A DNA stretch of 64,000 nucleotides, taken from Seleniivibrio woodruffii. Lineage in GTDB: Bacteria; Chrysiogenota; Deferribacteres; Deferribacterales; Geovibrionaceae. Below the pieces are notes generated by a model. It was not told where the DNA came from. It did not search any database and worked only from the letters and a program-made list of their open reading frames with translations. This document shows positions 24,349-61,622 of this stretch, piece by piece. Positions within the stretch are counted from its first letter, which is position 1. Each line of letters begins with the position of its first letter. The position numbers and the translations under genes are program-made. The stretch lies in assembly GCF_004339245.1 (NCBI RefSeq), contig NZ_SMGG01000003.1, positions 399,106-463,105 of the forward strand, given 5' to 3'.

Positions 24349-24367
24349 ATGCTTGTATACATATAGG

Positions 24368-24473
24368 CTTATCTTTCCTAAATCGGCAGGATTTAGCACC
24401 AAGACATCGGCTTATTATGCCGACCGGCTGCTGTAGCTTCACAGGGCCTTTTCCCTCCGCTACTCTGGATAAG
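24368..24473 (-). promoter_or_regulatory. SAM-I (S-box) riboswitch aptamer
   Basis: On the minus strand the P1 stem is CTTATC / GATAAG. The conserved S-box core follows: AGAG-N2-GC-GAGGGA-AAA-GGCCCT-N-TGA, then CAGCA and GGTGCTAA-TCC-N-CC before the closing GATAAG. Placement directly before a terminator and the metY-metX operon matches OFF-type S-box control, in which high SAM represses methionine synthesis. Confidence 0.93.
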
Positions 24474-24482
24474 TGAAACTAC

Positions 24483-52584: not shown

Positions 52585-53007
52585 ATGAAAGCTGTTCTTG
52601 TTCTAATTTTTGCACTTACATCGGTTTTTGCCTTTGCGGCATCTCCCGCCGGTCTCTGGAAGACCATAGACGACAAAACGGGCAAAGAGAAATCTCTGGT
52701 ACGCATAACGGAGAACGGAGGCGTTCTCAGCGGTGCTATAGAAAAACTGCTCGATCCTAATGCCAAAAAGGATATGGTCTGTGACGAATGTACGGACGAC
52801 AGAAAGGGCAAACCCGTTGTCGGACTGAACATTATCCGGGGACTGAAACAGGACGGCGAGAAATGGGAAGGGGGAACCATCCTCGACCCTAAAAGCGGAA
52901 AAATATATAAAGCTACAATAAAGGTCATTGAGGGCGGAAAAAAACTGGAACTCAGAGGCTACATAGGCCCCTTCTTCCGCACTCAGGTTTGGCTTAGGGC
53001 CGACTGA
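52585..53007 (+). CDS. DUF2147 periplasmic protein
   Basis: The 140-residue protein has a cleavable signal peptide (about 1-18) and the DUF2147 pattern P-A-G-L-W-K-T-I-D-D, C-D-E-C-T-D-D, P-V-V-G-L-N-I-I, K-I-Y-K-A and L-R-G-Y-I-G-P-F-F-R-T-Q-V-W. Likely a small beta-barrel of unknown function in the periplasm. It is 8 bp before the Rrf2 gene and probably co-transcribed. Confidence 0.88.
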   Translation: MKAVLVLIFALTSVFAFAASPAGLWKTIDDKTGKEKSLVRITENGGVLSGAIEKLLDPNAKKDMVCDECTDDRKGKPVVGLNIIRGLKQDGEKWEGGTILDPKSGKIYKATIKVIEGGKKLELRGYIGPFFRTQVWLRAD

Positions 53008-53015
53008 GAGCTTTC

Positions 53016-53498
53016 ATGCAGTTTTCTGTCGGTGTCGAATATGCGCTCCACTGCCTCTGCTACATAGGGCAGGAGAGGCCTGTGGGCGTTAAAGAACTTG
53101 CTGCGTTTCAGGGGATTTCCGAAACCTATCTTTCGAAAATGCTCACAAAACTCCGTAAGGCGGGGGTGGTTCGGTCTGTGTCCGGCGTAAACGGCGGCTA
53201 TGAGCTGACCCGTCCGGCGGACGAGATAACCTTCTGGGATGTTGTTCAGGCAATAGAGGGCAGTTCGCCCCTGTTCCAGTGCGCAGAGGTGCGCCAGAAC
53301 AATATAATAGTTGATAAGAATAACCTGCCGGATGCCTACTGCAAGGAACCCTGCCTCATAAAAGTCGTTATGCTGGAGGCGGAGGACAGAATGCGGGATT
53401 ATCTGCGGAGCAAAACCATCGGCTGGCTGATGGGCGAGGTCAGGAAGAAGGTTGATCCGAAGCAGTTGAAGGATGCCGAAGAATTCTTTAAAAAATAA
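53016..53498 (+). CDS. Rrf2-family transcriptional regulator
   Basis: The 160-residue protein has the Rrf2 winged helix (F-S-V-G-V-E-Y-A; I-S-E-T-Y-L-S-K-M-L-T-K-L; G-V-N-G-G-Y). Cysteines C89, C109 and C113 could hold an Fe-S cluster, though their spacing differs from IscR and NsrR. A palindrome over the promoter of the convergent gene at 53942-53966 is one possible target. Confidence 0.9.
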   Translation: MQFSVGVEYALHCLCYIGQERPVGVKELAAFQGISETYLSKMLTKLRKAGVVRSVSGVNGGYELTRPADEITFWDVVQAIEGSSPLFQCAEVRQNNIIVDKNNLPDAYCKEPCLIKVVMLEAEDRMRDYLRSKTIGWLMGEVRKKVDPKQLKDAEEFFKK

Positions 53499-54767: not shown

Positions 54768-55454
54768 CTATTCTGCGGATATTTTTTCTGCCGTTGCTGC
54801 GGAGATGAACACCCGTAGACCCTCTGCGGTGCATATCACCATGTCCGGATAGTCGTCCAGATGGACTGATTTTCCTGTTTCGATTCCTTCGAGGTTCAGA
54901 ACCGTTCCTTTCGATATACCGTTAACAGCCATTACTTCGCTGTATGTATCCTGACTTATCAGTTCTTTAACGGTGAAATCCCTGTTCTTTGATGCGAACG
55001 AGAACTGGCGGTTTTCTCCCAGAATGCATGCCGCATGAGCTTCGGACAGTCTGCATCTTGTCTTGTGACCCACCAGTGTGATGTATTCCATATGCGGAAG
55101 TTTTTTTATGACCTGAACAGAGTCTCCGTTCTTTATGCCAAGTTTCGTCATATCTTTTGAGTAGTTTCGGGGAACAACAACGGTGAACTCCGTGTTCAGC
55201 TCCTGTTCGTAGATGCTCCTCTTCTCGCCGGAGGGCGAACTGTAAAAAAGATGCCTCGCCATTGAGCCGCTGAGAGCAATGGTGGTTTCACCAATAGCCA
55301 GTTTCAGTGTGGCAAGCTCTATCTCGCCTCTGCCAACCTTGGAAACCAGACTTCCGGCAAAAATACCGTATGCGCCCAGCTTTCTGGCAAGTTCAGGTTC
55401 TTTGACCGATGTTATCCTGTAAAATCCGCCGCTTTTTGCTTCGGAAAGTTTCAT
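54768..55454 (-). CDS. Protein with three FeoA-like (SH3) domains
   Basis: The 228-residue soluble protein has three FeoA-like repeats at about 1-75, 83-150 and 157-225. Each has a K-L-G-A-Y-G-I-F / K-L-G-I-K-N-G-D / V-N-G-I-S-K-G-T type turn. Normal FeoA is about 75-85 residues with one domain and works with the FeoB ferrous iron transporter; no FeoB is here. It overlaps the P1B ATPase by 4 bp and is the last gene of the ferrosome-like cluster, so it may act in iron handling with that ATPase. Confidence 0.85.
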   Translation of the reverse strand: MKLSEAKSGGFYRITSVKEPELARKLGAYGIFAGSLVSKVGRGEIELATLKLAIGETTIALSGSMARHLFYSSPSGEKRSIYEQELNTEFTVVVPRNYSKDMTKLGIKNGDSVQVIKKLPHMEYITLVGHKTRCRLSEAHAACILGENRQFSFASKNRDFTVKELISQDTYSEVMAVNGISKGTVLNLEGIETGKSVHLDDYPDMVICTAEGLRVFISAATAEKISAE

Positions 55455-57553
55455 TTTTGTCTCCCGCTCTGGGACAGGCTCAGAGCATAAAGCAGAGTGC
55501 CGAGTGTGGTTCCGTTGTGCAGAACAGCCGACTGGAGGGGGCTGATGCGTCCCATGACAGACAGCAGAACCGTCATTGTGTTTATACCTATATTTGCAAC
55601 GGAAACCCGTTTGATAACCTTCATTGTTTTTGCCGCCGTGATGCGTGCGGTGACTATGCCCCTCAGGTCGTTGCGCAGAAGGATAACGTCCGAAGTCTCT
55701 CTCGCAAGGTCAGCCCCTTCGGGCATGCTTATGCCGACGTGTGCCGAAAGCAAAGCCGGAGCATCGTTCACTCCGTCGCCCACAAAGGCAATTTTGTGCC
55801 CTTCGGACTTGAGCCTGTTAACAACGCTCAGCTTGTCCTCGGGTTTCATTTCGTAGTAGACCTCTTTTATTCCCAGTTCTCCCGCAACGTGCATGGCGGT
55901 GTCCCTGTGGTCGCCCGTCAGCATAACGACCCTGCTGACCCCTCTCTTTTTCAGTTCTTTTATGACCTCTGCGGATTCTGCTCGGGGAACGTCCTTCAGG
56001 GCTATTATACCCGCCAGAACCCCGTCACATGCCACATAAAGAATGCTTCTGCCGGTTTTGCGCAGTGCATCCGCCGTTTCGTCTGCGGCGCAGCAGTCGA
56101 TGTTCTCGTCGTCATGTATGAAATGGCGGCTGCCCGCCAGAATGTGCCTTTTGCCGACGTAGGCCGAAACCCCGTGTGCGATGATGAAGTCCACCTCCCC
56201 TGTCTCTTCCAGCGGTATGTTCCTCCGCTCCGCCTCTTTGACCACTGCGGAGGCTATGGGGTGGCTGTAATGCTCTTCGGCACTGGCGGCGGTTCTGAGA
56301 ATCTCCCGTTCGTCCATGTCCGAAAAGCTGATAATATCTGAAACCTCAAGGGAGCCTTTTGTCAGAGTTCCGGTTTTATCGAAAATGATGGTGTCTATCT
56401 CCGCCATGTTTTCCAATGACTGCGCACCCTTTATGAAGATGCCCTCGGATGCGGCGCAGTACATGCTGGATTTGATTGCTGTTGGTGTCACCAGTTTCAG
56501 GGCGCATGAGTAGTCCACTGACAGAACCGAGGATGCCCTGCGGAAATCACGGGTGAGAAGCAGTGTAGCAAGGCCTATTCCGAATGTGACGGGAACCATG
56601 CGGTCTGCTATTTTGAAGGCCCGAACCTCGGTGTTGGATTTATTCTTAAGTGAGTTGTTGATGAATTTTGCAATTCTGGCGGTGGTGGTCTCTGCGCCCA
56701 CCTTTCGGGCTTCTATGACCAGTCTGCCTTCGGCGACCACAGTTCCTGCGAAAACTTCGCTGTCGGGACCTGCGGTAACGGGCAGGCTCTCTCCGGTAAC
56801 GGATGCCTGATTGATAAGGCCTTCGCCGCCTCTGACAATTCCGTCAACAGGGATCATCTCCCCTGCGCCGACAATCACCAGGCTGCCCACCAGAACTTCG
56901 CCCATGGCGACCTTTTTCTCTGTTTTGCCGTCCAGAATCCAGACGTATTCCACCTCGGGCTTTATAAGGCTTTTGAGCATCCTGTCGGATTTGTACTGGG
57001 TGGACGCTTCAAGATAATGCCCCAGATTAAGCAGGAAAGTTATTGAACCCGCAGTGAAATAATCCTTTCGAAGAAGAAGCATGGATATGACGGTGGCATC
57101 CAGAACCTCTACCTTGAGGCCTTCGTTCACCAGAGTGTCTATACCTTTCATAAGGACGGGAGCCGCTCCGGCAAATGTGAGCGGAGTGCGGAACCACTGA
57201 GGCAGAAACATCTTCGACAGCCACATGGAACCCGCCCAGTAAACGTTTATAAGGTCGGGTGAGTCCTGAATCTCCTCCTCCGCCTGAAAAACCGCATGGG
57301 AGAAGGTCTGAAGGGTTTTCAGCAGAACCTCGGTGATGTCTTTGTCCCTGTCGTGGCAGACCACGAGGGTGTTCGCCCGTTGGTTGACCCGAACGGATAT
57401 CACCCCGCTGATGCATTCCAGTGTGGATTCCAGCAGGGTACAGTCCAGGGCGGGGTTGCCGAGCACCCCCGCCTTAAGACGTATCCTTCCATCGGTTTTG
57501 TGGGCTATGCCGACTTTTTCAAGTCCCGTTGAATAGGTTTTAAATCTTGTCAT
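55451..57553 (-). CDS. P1B-type (P1B-6-like, FezB-like) metal-transporting ATPase
   Basis: The 700-residue P-type ATPase has a cysteine-free HMA-like N-terminus with D-G-R-I-R-L-K at 21-27, actuator motif T-G-E-S near 253-256 and phosphorylation site D392 in F-D-K-T-G-T. It also has the P1B histidine-proline pair (Y-S-H-P-I-A-S) and G-D-G-V-N-D-A-P. The membrane metal site reads D-Y-S-C-A-L-K-L-V-T-P at 347-357 instead of C-P-C, as in the P1B-6 group that includes the ferrosome ATPase FezB. Iron is the favoured substrate by that comparison. It overlaps the triple-FeoA gene by 4 bp and follows four small membrane-protein genes. Confidence 0.88.
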   Translation of the reverse strand: MTRFKTYSTGLEKVGIAHKTDGRIRLKAGVLGNPALDCTLLESTLECISGVISVRVNQRANTLVVCHDRDKDITEVLLKTLQTFSHAVFQAEEEIQDSPDLINVYWAGSMWLSKMFLPQWFRTPLTFAGAAPVLMKGIDTLVNEGLKVEVLDATVISMLLLRKDYFTAGSITFLLNLGHYLEASTQYKSDRMLKSLIKPEVEYVWILDGKTEKKVAMGEVLVGSLVIVGAGEMIPVDGIVRGGEGLINQASVTGESLPVTAGPDSEVFAGTVVAEGRLVIEARKVGAETTTARIAKFINNSLKNKSNTEVRAFKIADRMVPVTFGIGLATLLLTRDFRRASSVLSVDYSCALKLVTPTAIKSSMYCAASEGIFIKGAQSLENMAEIDTIIFDKTGTLTKGSLEVSDIISFSDMDEREILRTAASAEEHYSHPIASAVVKEAERRNIPLEETGEVDFIIAHGVSAYVGKRHILAGSRHFIHDDENIDCCAADETADALRKTGRSILYVACDGVLAGIIALKDVPRAESAEVIKELKKRGVSRVVMLTGDHRDTAMHVAGELGIKEVYYEMKPEDKLSVVNRLKSEGHKIAFVGDGVNDAPALLSAHVGISMPEGADLARETSDVILLRNDLRGIVTARITAAKTMKVIKRVSVANIGINTMTVLLSVMGRISPLQSAVLHNGTTLGTLLYALSLSQSGRQK

Positions 57554-57555
57554 TC

Positions 57556-57753
57556 TCAGCTTCTTTTTTTATAAAGTGCCGTATGGTAAGCCGCCAGACC
57601 GATCAGGGCGAAACCCGCCGCCGTGTGTACTGTTCTGGCCGTCTTTCCCTTCTGAAACCCCGACACCACCAGAATACCCAGTGAAGCCGCCATGGCATAT
57701 TTGGTGTATCTGCGCTTTATCTGCAAGGGTGACAGTTTTTTCTCTTCGGGCAT
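57556..57753 (-). CDS. Small two-helix membrane protein
   Basis: The 65-residue protein has a charged N-terminus and two hydrophobic segments (about 19-33 and 42-58) split by F-Q-K-G-K-T-A-R. The ATG at 57753 lies 1 base after the previous stop; a longer in-frame start overlaps that gene and is not used. Family not recognised. Position between the 105-aa protein and the FezB-like ATPase suggests a part in the same membrane assembly. Confidence 0.7.
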   Translation of the reverse strand: MPEEKKLSPLQIKRRYTKYAMAASLGILVVSGFQKGKTARTVHTAAGFALIGLAAYHTALYKKRS

Positions 57754-57754
57754 G

Positions 57755-58072
57755 TTATTCGCCGCCCATTTCCGCCTGAACGTCACGGATCTGCTCTTTC
57801 AGCTCCTCCACTCCGCCCTGAAGTCCACCCCAGAGCTTAACCACACCCTTGACCAGTGCTTTTTTCACTGCGGGGTTGGTGAGGATGAGTGCGACGCCTG
57901 CGCCGATGACAAAGCCTTTAACGTATGAAGGCTCACGGAAGTTGAACCACTCTTTAACGTGGCTTGCGGCTGAGTGCTGGGGTGCATAAGGCTGCTGATA
58001 GTAGCCCTGCTGAGGCTGCTGGGGTGCGTAATACTGCTGCTGTGCGGGGTCGAAAGGCTGTTGTGTGCTCAT
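57755..58072 (-). CDS. Gln/Pro/Tyr-rich small membrane protein with GAGVA module
   Basis: The 105-residue protein has a low-complexity N-terminus rich in Gln, Pro and Tyr (about 3-33). The membrane-like segment V-K-G-F-V-I-G-A-G-V-A-L-I-L (about 51-64) follows, then a charged amphipathic helix. The segment is closely similar to one in the protein at 58398-58925, so the two look paralogous. It overlaps the 110-aa gene by 4 bp. Confidence 0.75.
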   Translation of the reverse strand: MSTQQPFDPAQQQYYAPQQPQQGYYQQPYAPQHSAASHVKEWFNFREPSYVKGFVIGAGVALILTNPAVKKALVKGVVKLWGGLQGGVEELKEQIRDVQAEMGGE

Positions 58073-58401
58073 GATAGATCTCCTTGTTCAGTTGTACATT
58101 CTTCTTTTGTGCATTCGCTTACTTTTGAATCCCAAAGATATTTCATTCCTGCGGAAACCACTGTGAAAGCCGCCAGAGAGGCGAAAAGTCCCAGACCGAG
58201 TGTTCCGGCCACAGCCGCTCCCGCTGCCGTGGCAAGTCCTGTTCCTGCCGCTTCCTTCACTGTGTTTTCAGCCGCTTTTTCTTTCGTCACTTTTCCGTCT
58301 TTAAAGTCTCTGTACTGTTTTGCGGCAGAGACTGCGCCGCCTATGACCGCTCCCGCAACTGCGCCTGCGGCCGCTGTTTTCACCAGAACATGCCTGCTCA
58401 T
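58069..58401 (-). CDS. Glycine-zipper membrane protein
   Basis: The 110-residue protein has two Ala/Gly-rich hydrophobic hairpins (about 5-27 and 53-85; A-A-A-G-A-V-A-G-A-V-I-G-G-A) linked by a basic loop. A C-terminal E-C-T-K-E-E-C segment with two cysteines could bind metal. The pattern resembles proteins that tightly pack or curve membranes. Family not recognised. A ggagg site precedes the ATG. Confidence 0.72.
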   Translation of the reverse strand: MSRHVLVKTAAAGAVAGAVIGGAVSAAKQYRDFKDGKVTKEKAAENTVKEAAGTGLATAAGAAVAGTLGLGLFASLAAFTVVSAGMKYLWDSKVSECTKEECTTEQGDLS

Positions 58402-58925
58402 ATCTCTTCCTCCGTCTCTTCGGTAAACATTCCCGTCGCCTTGCCCAGAATATCTGTCAGTGCCGAACGGATAGATTCACTGCTTAAAAGCATTGCCACT
58501 CCTGCGCCCACCACAAGCCCCTTCATAAAGTCGCTTCCTGTGGCATTCACCATCCTGCTCACCTCCGAAAGCTGGGGGTTGTTCTCGATCATCTGCCCGA
58601 ACATGCCGAAAAGCCCGTTCATGGGGTCTTCCTGCCCCTGTCCGTGGCATTCGTCATGGTGCGGCGGCTGCTGCTGATGATGATGAAACTGCGGGGGATA
58701 GGGCTGATATCCGTACTGAGGCGGATACGGCGGATAGCCGTATGGCGGGTACGGAGGCATCTGGGGCGGGTAGGGTGCATAGCCGTACATGGGCTGAAAT
58801 CCCTGCGGGGGATACATATAGGGGTTATAGTATCCGTTGGCATAGGGGTTTGTTTCCGGCTGTGCTCCCGCTGTGTTTTCTGTTTCCTGTCCGGGTGTTG
58901 TTTCGTTTATCTCGTTTTCTTCCAC
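58398..58925 (-). CDS. Pro/Tyr-rich protein with histidine cluster and GAGVA membrane module
   Basis: The start is GTG at 58925, five bases after an aaggagg site; the longer reading frame upstream has none. The 175-residue product has an acidic start, a Y-P-P / P-Y-G-Y repeat region (about 27-80) and a His/Gln cluster H-H-H-Q-Q-Q-P-P-H-H-D-E-C-H (81-94) that could bind metal. The membrane segment M-K-G-L-V-V-G-A-G-V-A-M-L-L (about 134-147) is shared with the 105-aa protein. It is the first small gene after the HMA-like one. Confidence 0.75.
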   Translation of the reverse strand: MEENEINETTPGQETENTAGAQPETNPYANGYYNPYMYPPQGFQPMYGYAPYPPQMPPYPPYGYPPYPPQYGYQPYPPQFHHHQQQPPHHDECHGQGQEDPMNGLFGMFGQMIENNPQLSEVSRMVNATGSDFMKGLVVGAGVAMLLSSESIRSALTDILGKATGMFTEETEEEI

Positions 58926-58973
58926 AATACCCTCCTTTATGTTTTTAGTTTGTATGCTGTTTAAAATCCGGTT

Positions 58974-59038
58974 GAGATTCTGCACCCTGCGGGCTCAGAA
59001 TGACGACTAACGTCACCCTGAACGGAGCGAAGGGCCTC
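58974..59038. repeat. Dispersed intergenic repeat pair
   Basis: GAGATTCT ... GGCTCAGAATGACG at 58974-59005 is the reverse complement of the element at 6955-6984. A related half, CGTCACCCTGAACGGAGCG, follows at 59011. Together they form an inverted pair inside the cluster, between the HMA-like gene and the Pro/Tyr-rich gene, and could partly terminate transcription there. Confidence 0.6.
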
Positions 59039-59333
59039 ATTTTATAAACTCTTCGTATTTTTTAAGTATTGCCAGACTCTCCCCATCTGATGCTCCCAGC
59101 AGAACAGCCATATCCTGCGGCTTTATCACCGCCGGGTCATAGCGCAGAACAACGGAGCGGGCGAGCATGTTCACCCTTTTGTCCAGAACTCCGGGGATGG
59201 ATGCGCTTATCTCCTCCAGCCTCTTGCTGACGGGATCTTTCAGAATGGCGGGGTCGACCTTTAGCCGTATACGCCCTTCCACATGGTGCACCACAGAAAC
59301 GTACTTTTTGACCGCCAGAAGTTCCTCAATCAT
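59037..59333 (-). CDS. HMA-like protein lacking the CxxC metal site
   Basis: The 98-residue protein has an HMA-like fold pattern, with V-V-H-H-V-E-G-R-I-R-L-K at about 14-25 and I-P-G-V-L-D-K-R-V-N later. It has no cysteine, so it cannot bind Cu or Zn through CxxC. The H-x-x-(E/P)-G-R-(I/L)-R motif also begins both ATPases of the cluster and is a marker of ferrosome-type ATPases. It overlaps the upstream ATPase by 8 bp. Confidence 0.78.
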   Translation of the reverse strand: MIEELLAVKKYVSVVHHVEGRIRLKVDPAILKDPVSKRLEEISASIPGVLDKRVNMLARSVVLRYDPAVIKPQDMAVLLGASDGESLAILKKYEEFIK

Positions 59334-61524
59334 TTTTGTCCTCTCCGTTATAGGTTATGAGTCTGGATGAATTTGCCATTATCCCGCCTGTGTGGACAAT
59401 GTGCAGAAGTCCCGCCATTAAGGGGTTCAGCATGCCCACCGCACCGAGCACGGCTCCTGCGGCGTTTGTTGATGTGGCGATGGTAAAGTTCTGATTTATT
59501 ATTGTTTTGGTTTTTTTGCTCAGCTGTCGCAGGAAGACTATTTTGTTCAGATCGTCATCCACAAGGGCAATATCCGCCGCTTCCACTGCAACATCAGATC
59601 CGGCCGCACCCATTGCGATGCCAAGGTCGGACTGGGCAAGAGCCAGTACGTCGTTTATTCCGTCGCCTATCATTGCGACCTTGTGGTCCTTCTGGATCTG
59701 GCGGATGATGTCCGCCTTGTCCTGCGGCAGAACGGAGTAGTGACATTCGTCAAAACCCAGACGCTGTGCCAGAGGTTCTGCGGACTGTCGTTCGTCCCCT
59801 GTTACCATTATCAGGTTTTTCACACCGTCTTTGCGCAGAGTTTCGATCATCTCCGCAACTCCCTCTTTGTCTTTGGTCTGCACAGAGAGGATTCCCAGAA
59901 GTCTGTTTCCTTCTGCAACGTAAAGAACGCTTTTGCCCTCGTTCGCCCAGAGTTCGGCCTTTTTTGCAACGGTTCCGGTTTTGATTGAAAACCTGTCCAT
60001 GAGCTTTCTGTTGCCCACGCACACAGTGCCTTCCGCAGTGTCGGCCGCAACACCCATGCCCAGAATGGTTTCGCATACGGCGTGGTCGGGTTTTTCCAGA
60101 CAGTAGGACTCCGCCTTTTTGCGGATGGCCGCCGCCATGGGGTGGCGGTTGTGCAGTTCTGCGGCGTATGCACGCATCAGCACATCCTGCTCCGAGAAGC
60201 CTTTAAGGGCATGAACGTCTATAACTTCGGGCATGTCAGTTGTGATGGTGCCCGTTTTGTCGAAGCAGAATGATTCCTGTTCTCCCGCATCCTCAAGATA
60301 TCTGCCGCCTTTGATAAGCACGCCCTTTGATGCGGCGTTGCCTATGGATGCGCTCACTGCGGACGATGCCGCCAGAGCCGTTGCACAGGGACAGGTCATG
60401 ACCAGCATCACCGAAAGGGTTCTGGACAGGTTACGGGTGAGAAGCCATGTTCCCGCCGTCATGATGAGGCCGATGTTAACCAGTTTTTTTGCCAGTCTGT
60501 CCGCCTCAAGCTCGATTGGGGCTTTGTTTTCCAGCGATGTCTCCACCGCCGCCAGAATGCGTGAAAGGTATGTGCTGTCGCCCACCCTGTCCGCACGGAT
60601 GTATATCAGCCCGTCCTGAACGTAGGTTCCGGCGTAGACTGTGTCTGATTTAACTTTATGGATGAGTTCCTGTCTGCCGTTTATGGGAGCCTCGTTAACC
60701 ATGGCCTCTCCACGGATAATCTCACCGTCGACAGATATCTTTTCGCCTGTGCGGACTATCACTGTTGACTGAGGCTCAATGCGCTCAACGGGAACTTCAA
60801 TCTCACGCCCGTTGACGAGGATGAAGGCTGTTTTTGCGGTGACATCCAGAATGCTCTTGATAGAGGTTCGGGATTTTTCGGTGATATGCTCCTGCATAAG
60901 CTCTGCGCCGCTGTTGACCCAGAGAATTTCAAGGGCGGTCATGGTTTCTCCGCCCAGCAGTGCCGCACCGATACCCGCTCCCAGAAACGAATCCAGACCT
61001 ATCTTTTTATCTTTTATGCTTTTTGAGACCGCAGAATAGACAAGGGGAGCGGCGAAGAACGCCGTAAACATCCACATGGGGCTGAAAAGTGCCTGAGAAA
61101 ACGCACGTCCGAGGAACCGCTTTGATATGAAAGATGCGCCCGCTGCAACTGACAGGGCAGTAAATTCAGATTTTCTGGAGAGCAGTGCCAGGCTGTCCTT
61201 TGCATCGTCGCATGCGCAGTCGGCCTTTGCAGACTGTGAGACTGTCAGGGGTGCGGGCTTGATGCTCACCACCAGATTGACAATGTCCGAAACCGACAGA
61301 GAGTCGCTTTTGTATTCCACAATAAGGCTGGCGCACTTGCGGTTGCACCGGACAGATTTTATTCCGTTTTTTGATGATAGAACGCTGACTATGGACGAAC
61401 AGAGGTTTTGCTCTGACCGCAGTACAGGATATTTTAATCTGACCCTTTCGGGGGATGATGAGACAATCTTTAACACACTAACCGTCCTGCGCGTCCCATG
61501 CCCGAAGGAACGCAGATTCGTCAA
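59326..61524 (-). CDS. P1B-type ATPase with CPC metal site and altered actuator motif
   Basis: The protein is up to 732 residues: an HMA-like N-terminus with P-E-R-V-R-L-K at 25-31, two cysteine-bearing spots (R-C-N-R-K-C; D-C-A-C), membrane motif T-C-P-C-A-T-A-L (377-384), D422 in F-D-K-T-G-T, the H-P pair (N-R-H-P-M) and G-D-G-I-N-D. The actuator segment reads N-E-A-P-I-N-G-R-Q-E where its neighbour has N-Q-A-S-V-T-G-E-S-L, so T-G-E-S is replaced by N-G-R-Q and the dephosphorylation glutamate is missing. The start may be TTG 61524 or GTG 61476, the latter with aggacgg upstream. First gene of the cluster. Confidence 0.85.
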   Translation of the reverse strand: MTNLRSFGHGTRRTVSVLKIVSSSPERVRLKYPVLRSEQNLCSSIVSVLSSKNGIKSVRCNRKCASLIVEYKSDSLSVSDIVNLVVSIKPAPLTVSQSAKADCACDDAKDSLALLSRKSEFTALSVAAGASFISKRFLGRAFSQALFSPMWMFTAFFAAPLVYSAVSKSIKDKKIGLDSFLGAGIGAALLGGETMTALEILWVNSGAELMQEHITEKSRTSIKSILDVTAKTAFILVNGREIEVPVERIEPQSTVIVRTGEKISVDGEIIRGEAMVNEAPINGRQELIHKVKSDTVYAGTYVQDGLIYIRADRVGDSTYLSRILAAVETSLENKAPIELEADRLAKKLVNIGLIMTAGTWLLTRNLSRTLSVMLVMTCPCATALAASSAVSASIGNAASKGVLIKGGRYLEDAGEQESFCFDKTGTITTDMPEVIDVHALKGFSEQDVLMRAYAAELHNRHPMAAAIRKKAESYCLEKPDHAVCETILGMGVAADTAEGTVCVGNRKLMDRFSIKTGTVAKKAELWANEGKSVLYVAEGNRLLGILSVQTKDKEGVAEMIETLRKDGVKNLIMVTGDERQSAEPLAQRLGFDECHYSVLPQDKADIIRQIQKDHKVAMIGDGINDVLALAQSDLGIAMGAAGSDVAVEAADIALVDDDLNKIVFLRQLSKKTKTIINQNFTIATSTNAAGAVLGAVGMLNPLMAGLLHIVHTGGIMANSSRLITYNGEDKND

Positions 61525-61592
61525 TGTGTCAACCCTAACGCTTATTTAATGTTAAGCACCGCAGATGTGAAAAGTCAACGCTTTTTCTGGAT

Positions 61593-61611
61593 TGAAATTG
61601 AATATCAGTAA
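61593..61611. promoter_or_regulatory. Second Fur-like box upstream of the ATPase cluster
   Basis: GAAATTGAATATCAGTAAT matches the Fur consensus at 12 of 19 positions, and the box at 54725-54743 at 15 of 19. It lies upstream of a TTGACT-N17-TTAACA promoter for the cluster. Confidence 0.45.
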
Positions 61612-61622
61612 TAACTTAGAAA

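Follow-up and report, generated by a model that had tools for sequence, protein, structure and literature searches.

What an operon that brings together two P1B-type ATPases, several small membrane proteins, and a FeoA-repeat protein might do is the question raised by a locus of Seleniivibrio woodruffii. The locus lies in the 64,000-nucleotide stretch analyzed here (the window; part of contig NZ_SMGG01000003.1 of a 2.9-Mb genome in 11 contigs). An earlier note, made from the sequence alone, had read it as a ferrosome-like gene cluster whose order and extra proteins looked new. Our analysis suggests that the locus is very likely an extended form of the ferrosome (fez) operon. The elements that appear to be new are its first ATPase (A) and its FeoA-repeat protein (H), to which a MamC-like protein (D) should be added if a link between MamC and ferrosomes has not already been published.

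Gene layout and upstream elements

The eight minus-strand open reading frames described earlier between 54768 and 61524 were all found again, at the same coordinates. The starts of A, C, and F were then corrected from the alignment of orthologs and from Shine-Dalgarno sites. ATPase A (716 amino acids) starts at the GTG at 61476, the TTG at 61524 assumed earlier falling within a conserved leader hairpin; C (175 amino acids) starts at the GTG at 58925, behind a good Shine-Dalgarno site; and F (65 amino acids) starts at the ATG at 57753. With these starts, the statement that nearly all genes overlap or touch holds for six of the seven junctions: A and B overlap by 8 nt, and C/D, D/E, and G/H by 4 nt each, while E and F are 1 nt and F and G 2 nt apart. 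The exception is the B-C junction, with a gap of 111 nt.

Upstream of A, a candidate promoter (TTGACT, an 18-nt spacer, and TAACAT; 61549 to 61578, minus strand) can be read from the sequence. It is preceded by a weak Fur-box-like sequence, ATTACTGATATTCAATTTC (61594 to 61612, minus strand), which agrees with the Escherichia coli consensus at 13 of 19 positions, a score reached by 14 of 300 shuffles in the window. Four further genomes of the genus have a like box at a comparable position (score reached by 2 to 7 of 300 shuffles), and no signal was seen in other genera. The likeness to the E. coli consensus is marginal and suggestive only. Downstream of the operon, but encoded on the plus strand, are genes for an Rrf2-family regulator (53016 to 53498) and a DUF2147 protein (52585 to 53007); an open reading frame of like size is found close to the operon in further genomes of this genus.

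The second ATPase groups with FezB

The second ATPase, encoded by gene G (55451 to 57553, minus strand; 700 amino acids), had been credited with an S-C-A-L-K-L site, and this is indeed present, as VDYSCALKL in transmembrane segment 4 (TM4). The protein also carries HN in TM6 (LHNGTT) and HKTDGRIR at its N terminus, lacks CxxC, and has an intact TGE. FezB-type ATPases are marked by HxxxxRxR, DYSCA(L/M/V)(K/Q)L, and HN. A careful maximum-likelihood analysis of 48 P1B ATPases (support given as UFBoot/SH-aLRT; a larger, quick tree was made besides) joined the 21 FezB-type sequences in a single clade (100/99). The FezB of the window belongs to a 12-member subclade (100/100) together with sequences of Desulfurispirillum indicum (strain S5, as we take genome G048 of the same phylum to be), Rhodomicrobium, Sulfurospirillum, a Desulfarculaceae metagenome-assembled genome (MAG), and others, whereas the genome's own other P1B pumps, which carry CxxC, are placed outside the FezB clade. 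The phylogeny proposed earlier as a check on this ATPase thus puts it in the FezB/P1B-6 clade, and not among Cu, Zn, or Mn pumps. That FezB might act on copper or zinc was considered and rejected because of this placement. The tree was built without the reference sequences of Desulfovibrio magneticus, Rhodopseudomonas palustris, Shewanella putrefaciens, and Clostridioides difficile, and our comparison with the clusters of these four is indirect.

At the gene level, the ferrosome-like character claimed for the cluster is supported by this clade membership and by the FezC-like, HMA_2, and small membrane proteins that recur in fez-type clusters of other phyla. As in fez clusters, FezB is encoded together with small hydrophobic membrane proteins.

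Another family of the order (L044 to L050) has a compact locus of FezB and an HMA_2-like protein of 98 to 101 amino acids, which in several genomes is divergent from a CxxC/CPC copper-type ATPase. The FezB copies of genomes G036 and G029 have in-frame stops within the match.

Conservation and spread of the cluster

Of 12 genomes of the family, which belongs to the Deferribacterota, nine have the block from A to H with the same gene order and on one strand. They represent three genera and include Denitrovibrio acetiphilus (presumably genome G007), and the block is therefore not a chance arrangement. In the three family genomes without ATPase A, FezB is missing too. Genes B, D, E, F, and G make up a core common to fez clusters of several phyla, which was seen in Desulfarculaceae, Gammaproteobacteria, Sulfurospirillum, Rhodomicrobium, and other loci. 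The core is also found in complete-looking clusters on plasmids of an Arcobacter sp. and of Azospirillum brasilense (L139 and L140), which implies that ferrosome genes can be plasmid-borne. In the Desulfarculaceae MAG, the genes from C to H are ordered as in the window, and the contig stops before A could appear. Consequently, the supposed novelty of the gene order and extra proteins does not extend to the shared core or to the run from C to H; it stands for ATPase A, whose actuator motif is altered, and with less certainty for H and the leader.

Two sets of 339 and 384 genomes, which overlap in part, yielded ATPase A only in the window's family and in G286, which belongs to a different and sparsely sampled phylum. 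Taxonomic counts from a contig scan with the generic pattern DKTGTL are to be read as "at least." The order in G286 is a DtxR-like regulator, A, C, D, E, F, FezB, and H, with no B. At this locus (L151, 10115 to 15464), the DtxR/MntR-like regulator and an apparent metal ABC transporter precede the fez-type cluster, a hint at iron or manganese control.

ATPase A has lost the TGE motif of the actuator domain

That the first gene, A (59326 to 61476, minus strand), encodes a P1B-type ATPase was confirmed. The protein has CPC in TM4 and an HMA_2-like N-domain without CxxC. It is not a FezB, given its TM4 motif and its separate clade (100/100), though a larger group (100/99) holds both. In an alignment of 117 P-type ATPases, NGR stands at the TGE position in all nine family orthologs. 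The 108 other sequences, which include FezB and further pumps of the same genome, all have TGE or SGE there. With the NGRAE of the G286 protein, TGE is replaced in 10 of 10 A orthologs, and N-G-R-x-E is invariant over the eight orthologs aligned, G286 included. A TGE suggested for A by pattern matching was rejected, since it had matched RTGEKISVDG elsewhere in the protein and the alignment has NGR at the actuator site. DKTGT, TGD, GDGIND, HP, and CPC are intact in all orthologs, and the gene is under strong purifying selection, with dN/dS values of about 0.03 to 0.10 that are rough because synonymous sites are near saturation in most pairs.

TGE is responsible for dephosphorylation in P1B ATPases (PMC8880997), and from its replacement by NGRxE we infer that A does not cycle normally. 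We expect A to be able to bind ATP and metal, and it may also become phosphorylated. It is probably unable to complete the cycle of an ordinary pump and is probably a non-canonical partner of FezB. Deprived of the TGE glutamate it should turn over poorly, making a sensor, scaffold, or lock likelier than a second pump. It is possible, if somewhat unlikely, that A is an ordinary P1B pump despite NGRxE, which would return iron to the cytosol or bring a second metal into the same compartment and would be compatible with a ferrosome. Such a pump would account for the intact catalytic and metal-site motifs and for the purifying selection, and the invariant glutamate two residues past the lost one might restore activity. 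It is harder to reconcile with the retention of TGE or SGE in every other P-type ATPase of the set and with the need for TGE for dephosphorylation in characterized P1B pumps (PMC8880997).

Translation of A may be subject to control of its own. A 64-nt leader hairpin (61469 to 61532, minus strand) lies upstream of and overlaps the start of A, and its 3' arm includes the GTG start codon (61474 to 61476). In six genomes the fold is more stable than those of dinucleotide shuffles (z of about -3.9 to -6.3). Three pairs of the alignment are changed on both sides; because eight outer pairs are invariant and the 3' arm extends into the coding sequence, the support from covariation is thin. A covariance model found six strong sites only in 55 genomes, all at A genes, and the lack of further convincing copies argues against a general iron-regulon element. 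The hairpin had no riboswitch match in Rfam at gathering or relaxed thresholds, and it was not recognized in the third genus, where another and weaker hairpin is present. It may set the level of A translation. Elsewhere in the window, a SAM riboswitch was identified at 24366 to 24475 (minus strand; Rfam RF00162, 68.8 bits).

Small proteins and the FeoA-repeat protein

Protein B (59037 to 59333, minus strand) is, as noted earlier, a small HMA-like protein without CxxC; its HMA_2 score of 29.3 bits is just under the Pfam threshold of 30. It has an HxxxGRxR motif, the RxR of which is shared with FezB and ATPase A, and a fold search returned weak matches only, among them metal-binding domains of Cu-ATPases. 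Protein C (58398 to 58925, minus strand) is a low-complexity protein rich in Pro, Tyr, Met, and His, with a glycine-rich hydrophobic C-terminal segment. In D. indicum (L040, 6006 to 6626) and on the Arcobacter plasmid (L139, 4336 to 5019), the slot of C is taken by a ferritin-like-looking protein, which belongs to DUF2202 in Arcobacter and has a glycine-rich C-terminal segment in D. indicum. Protein E (57755 to 58072, minus strand) has a Gln/Tyr/Pro-rich N terminus and a glycine-rich hydrophobic segment; it is homologous to the equivalent D. indicum protein and to the protein before FezB that is annotated as a YtxH-domain protein in Arcobacter and Azospirillum.

Protein F (57556 to 57753, minus strand) is a FezC-like small membrane protein and a candidate heme b cytochrome. 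It is homologous to the protein encoded beside FezB in D. indicum (1.8e-11), and two histidines are kept in 12 of 12 aligned sequences. The Pfam DUF4405 score is 24.9 bits for the ortholog in L051 and a weak 14.9 bits for F itself. The FezC of D. indicum binds heme b and resembles DUF4405 (PMC11334425), although the accession assayed there may not be the gene compared here.

The last gene, H (54768 to 55454, minus strand), had been described as encoding a triple FeoA protein. Two Pfam FeoA stretches are present (51 bits). An AlphaFold model (pLDDT, 88.7) consists of several small, repeated, beta-rich units, and FeoA structures top the Foldseek list obtained with it, at weak E-values (at least 0.008), so that a third unit is plausible rather than proven.

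Small membrane proteins beside P1B ATPases are also found outside ferrosomes, and the operon might be taken for a metal-efflux platform at the plasma membrane of the PacL/CtpC kind, in which glycine-rich small proteins would cluster one or two P1B ATPases expelling iron or another metal, with no organelle. CtpC, an ATPase described as P1B6-like, carries CPC in TM4 and HN in TM6 (PMC9374683), small membrane proteins assemble such pumps (PMC13043812), and in our tree the A clade adjoins actinobacterial CPC/HN ATPases, with weak support (88/84). However, neither DUF1490 nor DUF6110 was matched by any of proteins B to F, the set of genes corresponds to fez clusters, and FezC-like and MamC-like proteins have no obvious role in simple efflux. 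We therefore consider an efflux platform quite improbable.

A MamC-like protein in fez-type clusters

Protein D (58069 to 58401, minus strand) is a small membrane protein that resembles magnetosome MamC (Mms13). It matches the NCBIfam MamC profile (NF038051) at 4.7e-19 over positions 5 to 92 of 97, with a score of 68.5 bits that lies below the curated equivalog cut-off of 100 bits. The reversed sequence gave no match and a hand-scrambled one gave 0.051, while orthologs of D in L051, L054, L058, L052, and L151 also match, with E-values of 6e-15 to 3e-5. A PDB search with D returned low-complexity chance matches only. MamC is a predicted two-helix protein whose 21-residue loop would project into the lumen of the magnetosome and be in contact with the mineral (PMC6206293); by sequence, the layout of D is similar. 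No link between MamC and ferrosome genes was found in a literature search whose scope did not include the primary ferrosome papers. The resemblance of D to MamC notwithstanding, a cluster that derives from or makes a magnetite-type compartment is hardly credible, as scans of the cluster proteins matched no other magnetosome family, FezB shares the phylogeny of fez clusters, and the MamC-like gene occurs in fez-type clusters of several lineages with no sign of other magnetosome genes nearby.

Discussion

Taking the operon as that of a ferrosome, we propose that FezB would pump Fe(II) from the cytosol into the lumen of an iron-containing membrane compartment, which the small proteins B to E would shape and stabilize. 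F would move electrons across the membrane and so set the balance of Fe(II) and Fe(III), and the charged loop of D would face the lumen and contact the mineral, as in MamC. H would dock on the cytosolic side and, in an iron-dependent manner, serve the pump as an adaptor or regulator. A would act as a sensor, scaffold, or lock in partnership with FezB, at a level of translation that the leader hairpin may set. For A, H, D, and the leader, these are functions that we infer from sequence.

A more ambitious reading joins several of these points, and as a whole we regard it as unlikely. A would be a conserved P-type pseudo-pump that binds metal and ATP and becomes phosphorylated without turning over. 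Retained in the ferrosome operons of two or more phyla, it would serve FezB as a sensor or lock, and a dedicated leader RNA would set its translation. Ferrosomes would also have a MamC-type mineral-contact protein in common with magnetosomes, which would point to a shared ancestral toolkit for iron compartments. If A is indeed a regulatory pseudo-pump, the P-type ATPase fold would be put to an unusual use here. Likewise, if D is a true relative of MamC, ferrosomes and magnetosomes have a component in common, and this is relevant to how bacterial iron organelles evolved. In any case, ATPase A, which should not cycle normally, the putative FeoA-repeat adaptor, and the MamC-like protein are candidates for explaining how ferrosomes form, load, and release iron, and the operon also occurs in D. 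acetiphilus, a cultured strain whose genome is finished.

Comparison with known systems

The operon resembles the fez clusters of D. indicum, R. palustris, and D. magneticus in combining, within one operon, a P1B-6 FezB, a FezC-like protein related to DUF4405, an HMA_2 protein, and several small glycine-rich membrane proteins. In R. palustris, six fez genes are known, RPA2333 to RPA2338 (PMC12016538). Relative to these clusters, the window adds a first gene encoding the NGRxE ATPase A, a last gene encoding FeoA repeats, and the Pro/Tyr/Met-rich protein C, in place of which Arcobacter has the ferritin-like DUF2202 protein and D. indicum a similar-looking one. With the mycobacterial PacL/CtpC platforms it shares a P1B6-like CPC ATPase accompanied by small membrane proteins; it differs from them in having FezB, FezC-like, and MamC-like proteins, no DUF1490 or DUF6110, and a CPC ATPase without TGE. 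D and MamC both consist of two hydrophobic segments with a charged loop between them, but D scores under the NCBIfam cut-off and is encoded in fez operons rather than in magnetosome islands. Finally, H has the FeoA domain in common with FeoA, yet it carries two to three such units in one chain and is encoded with FezB instead of FeoB.
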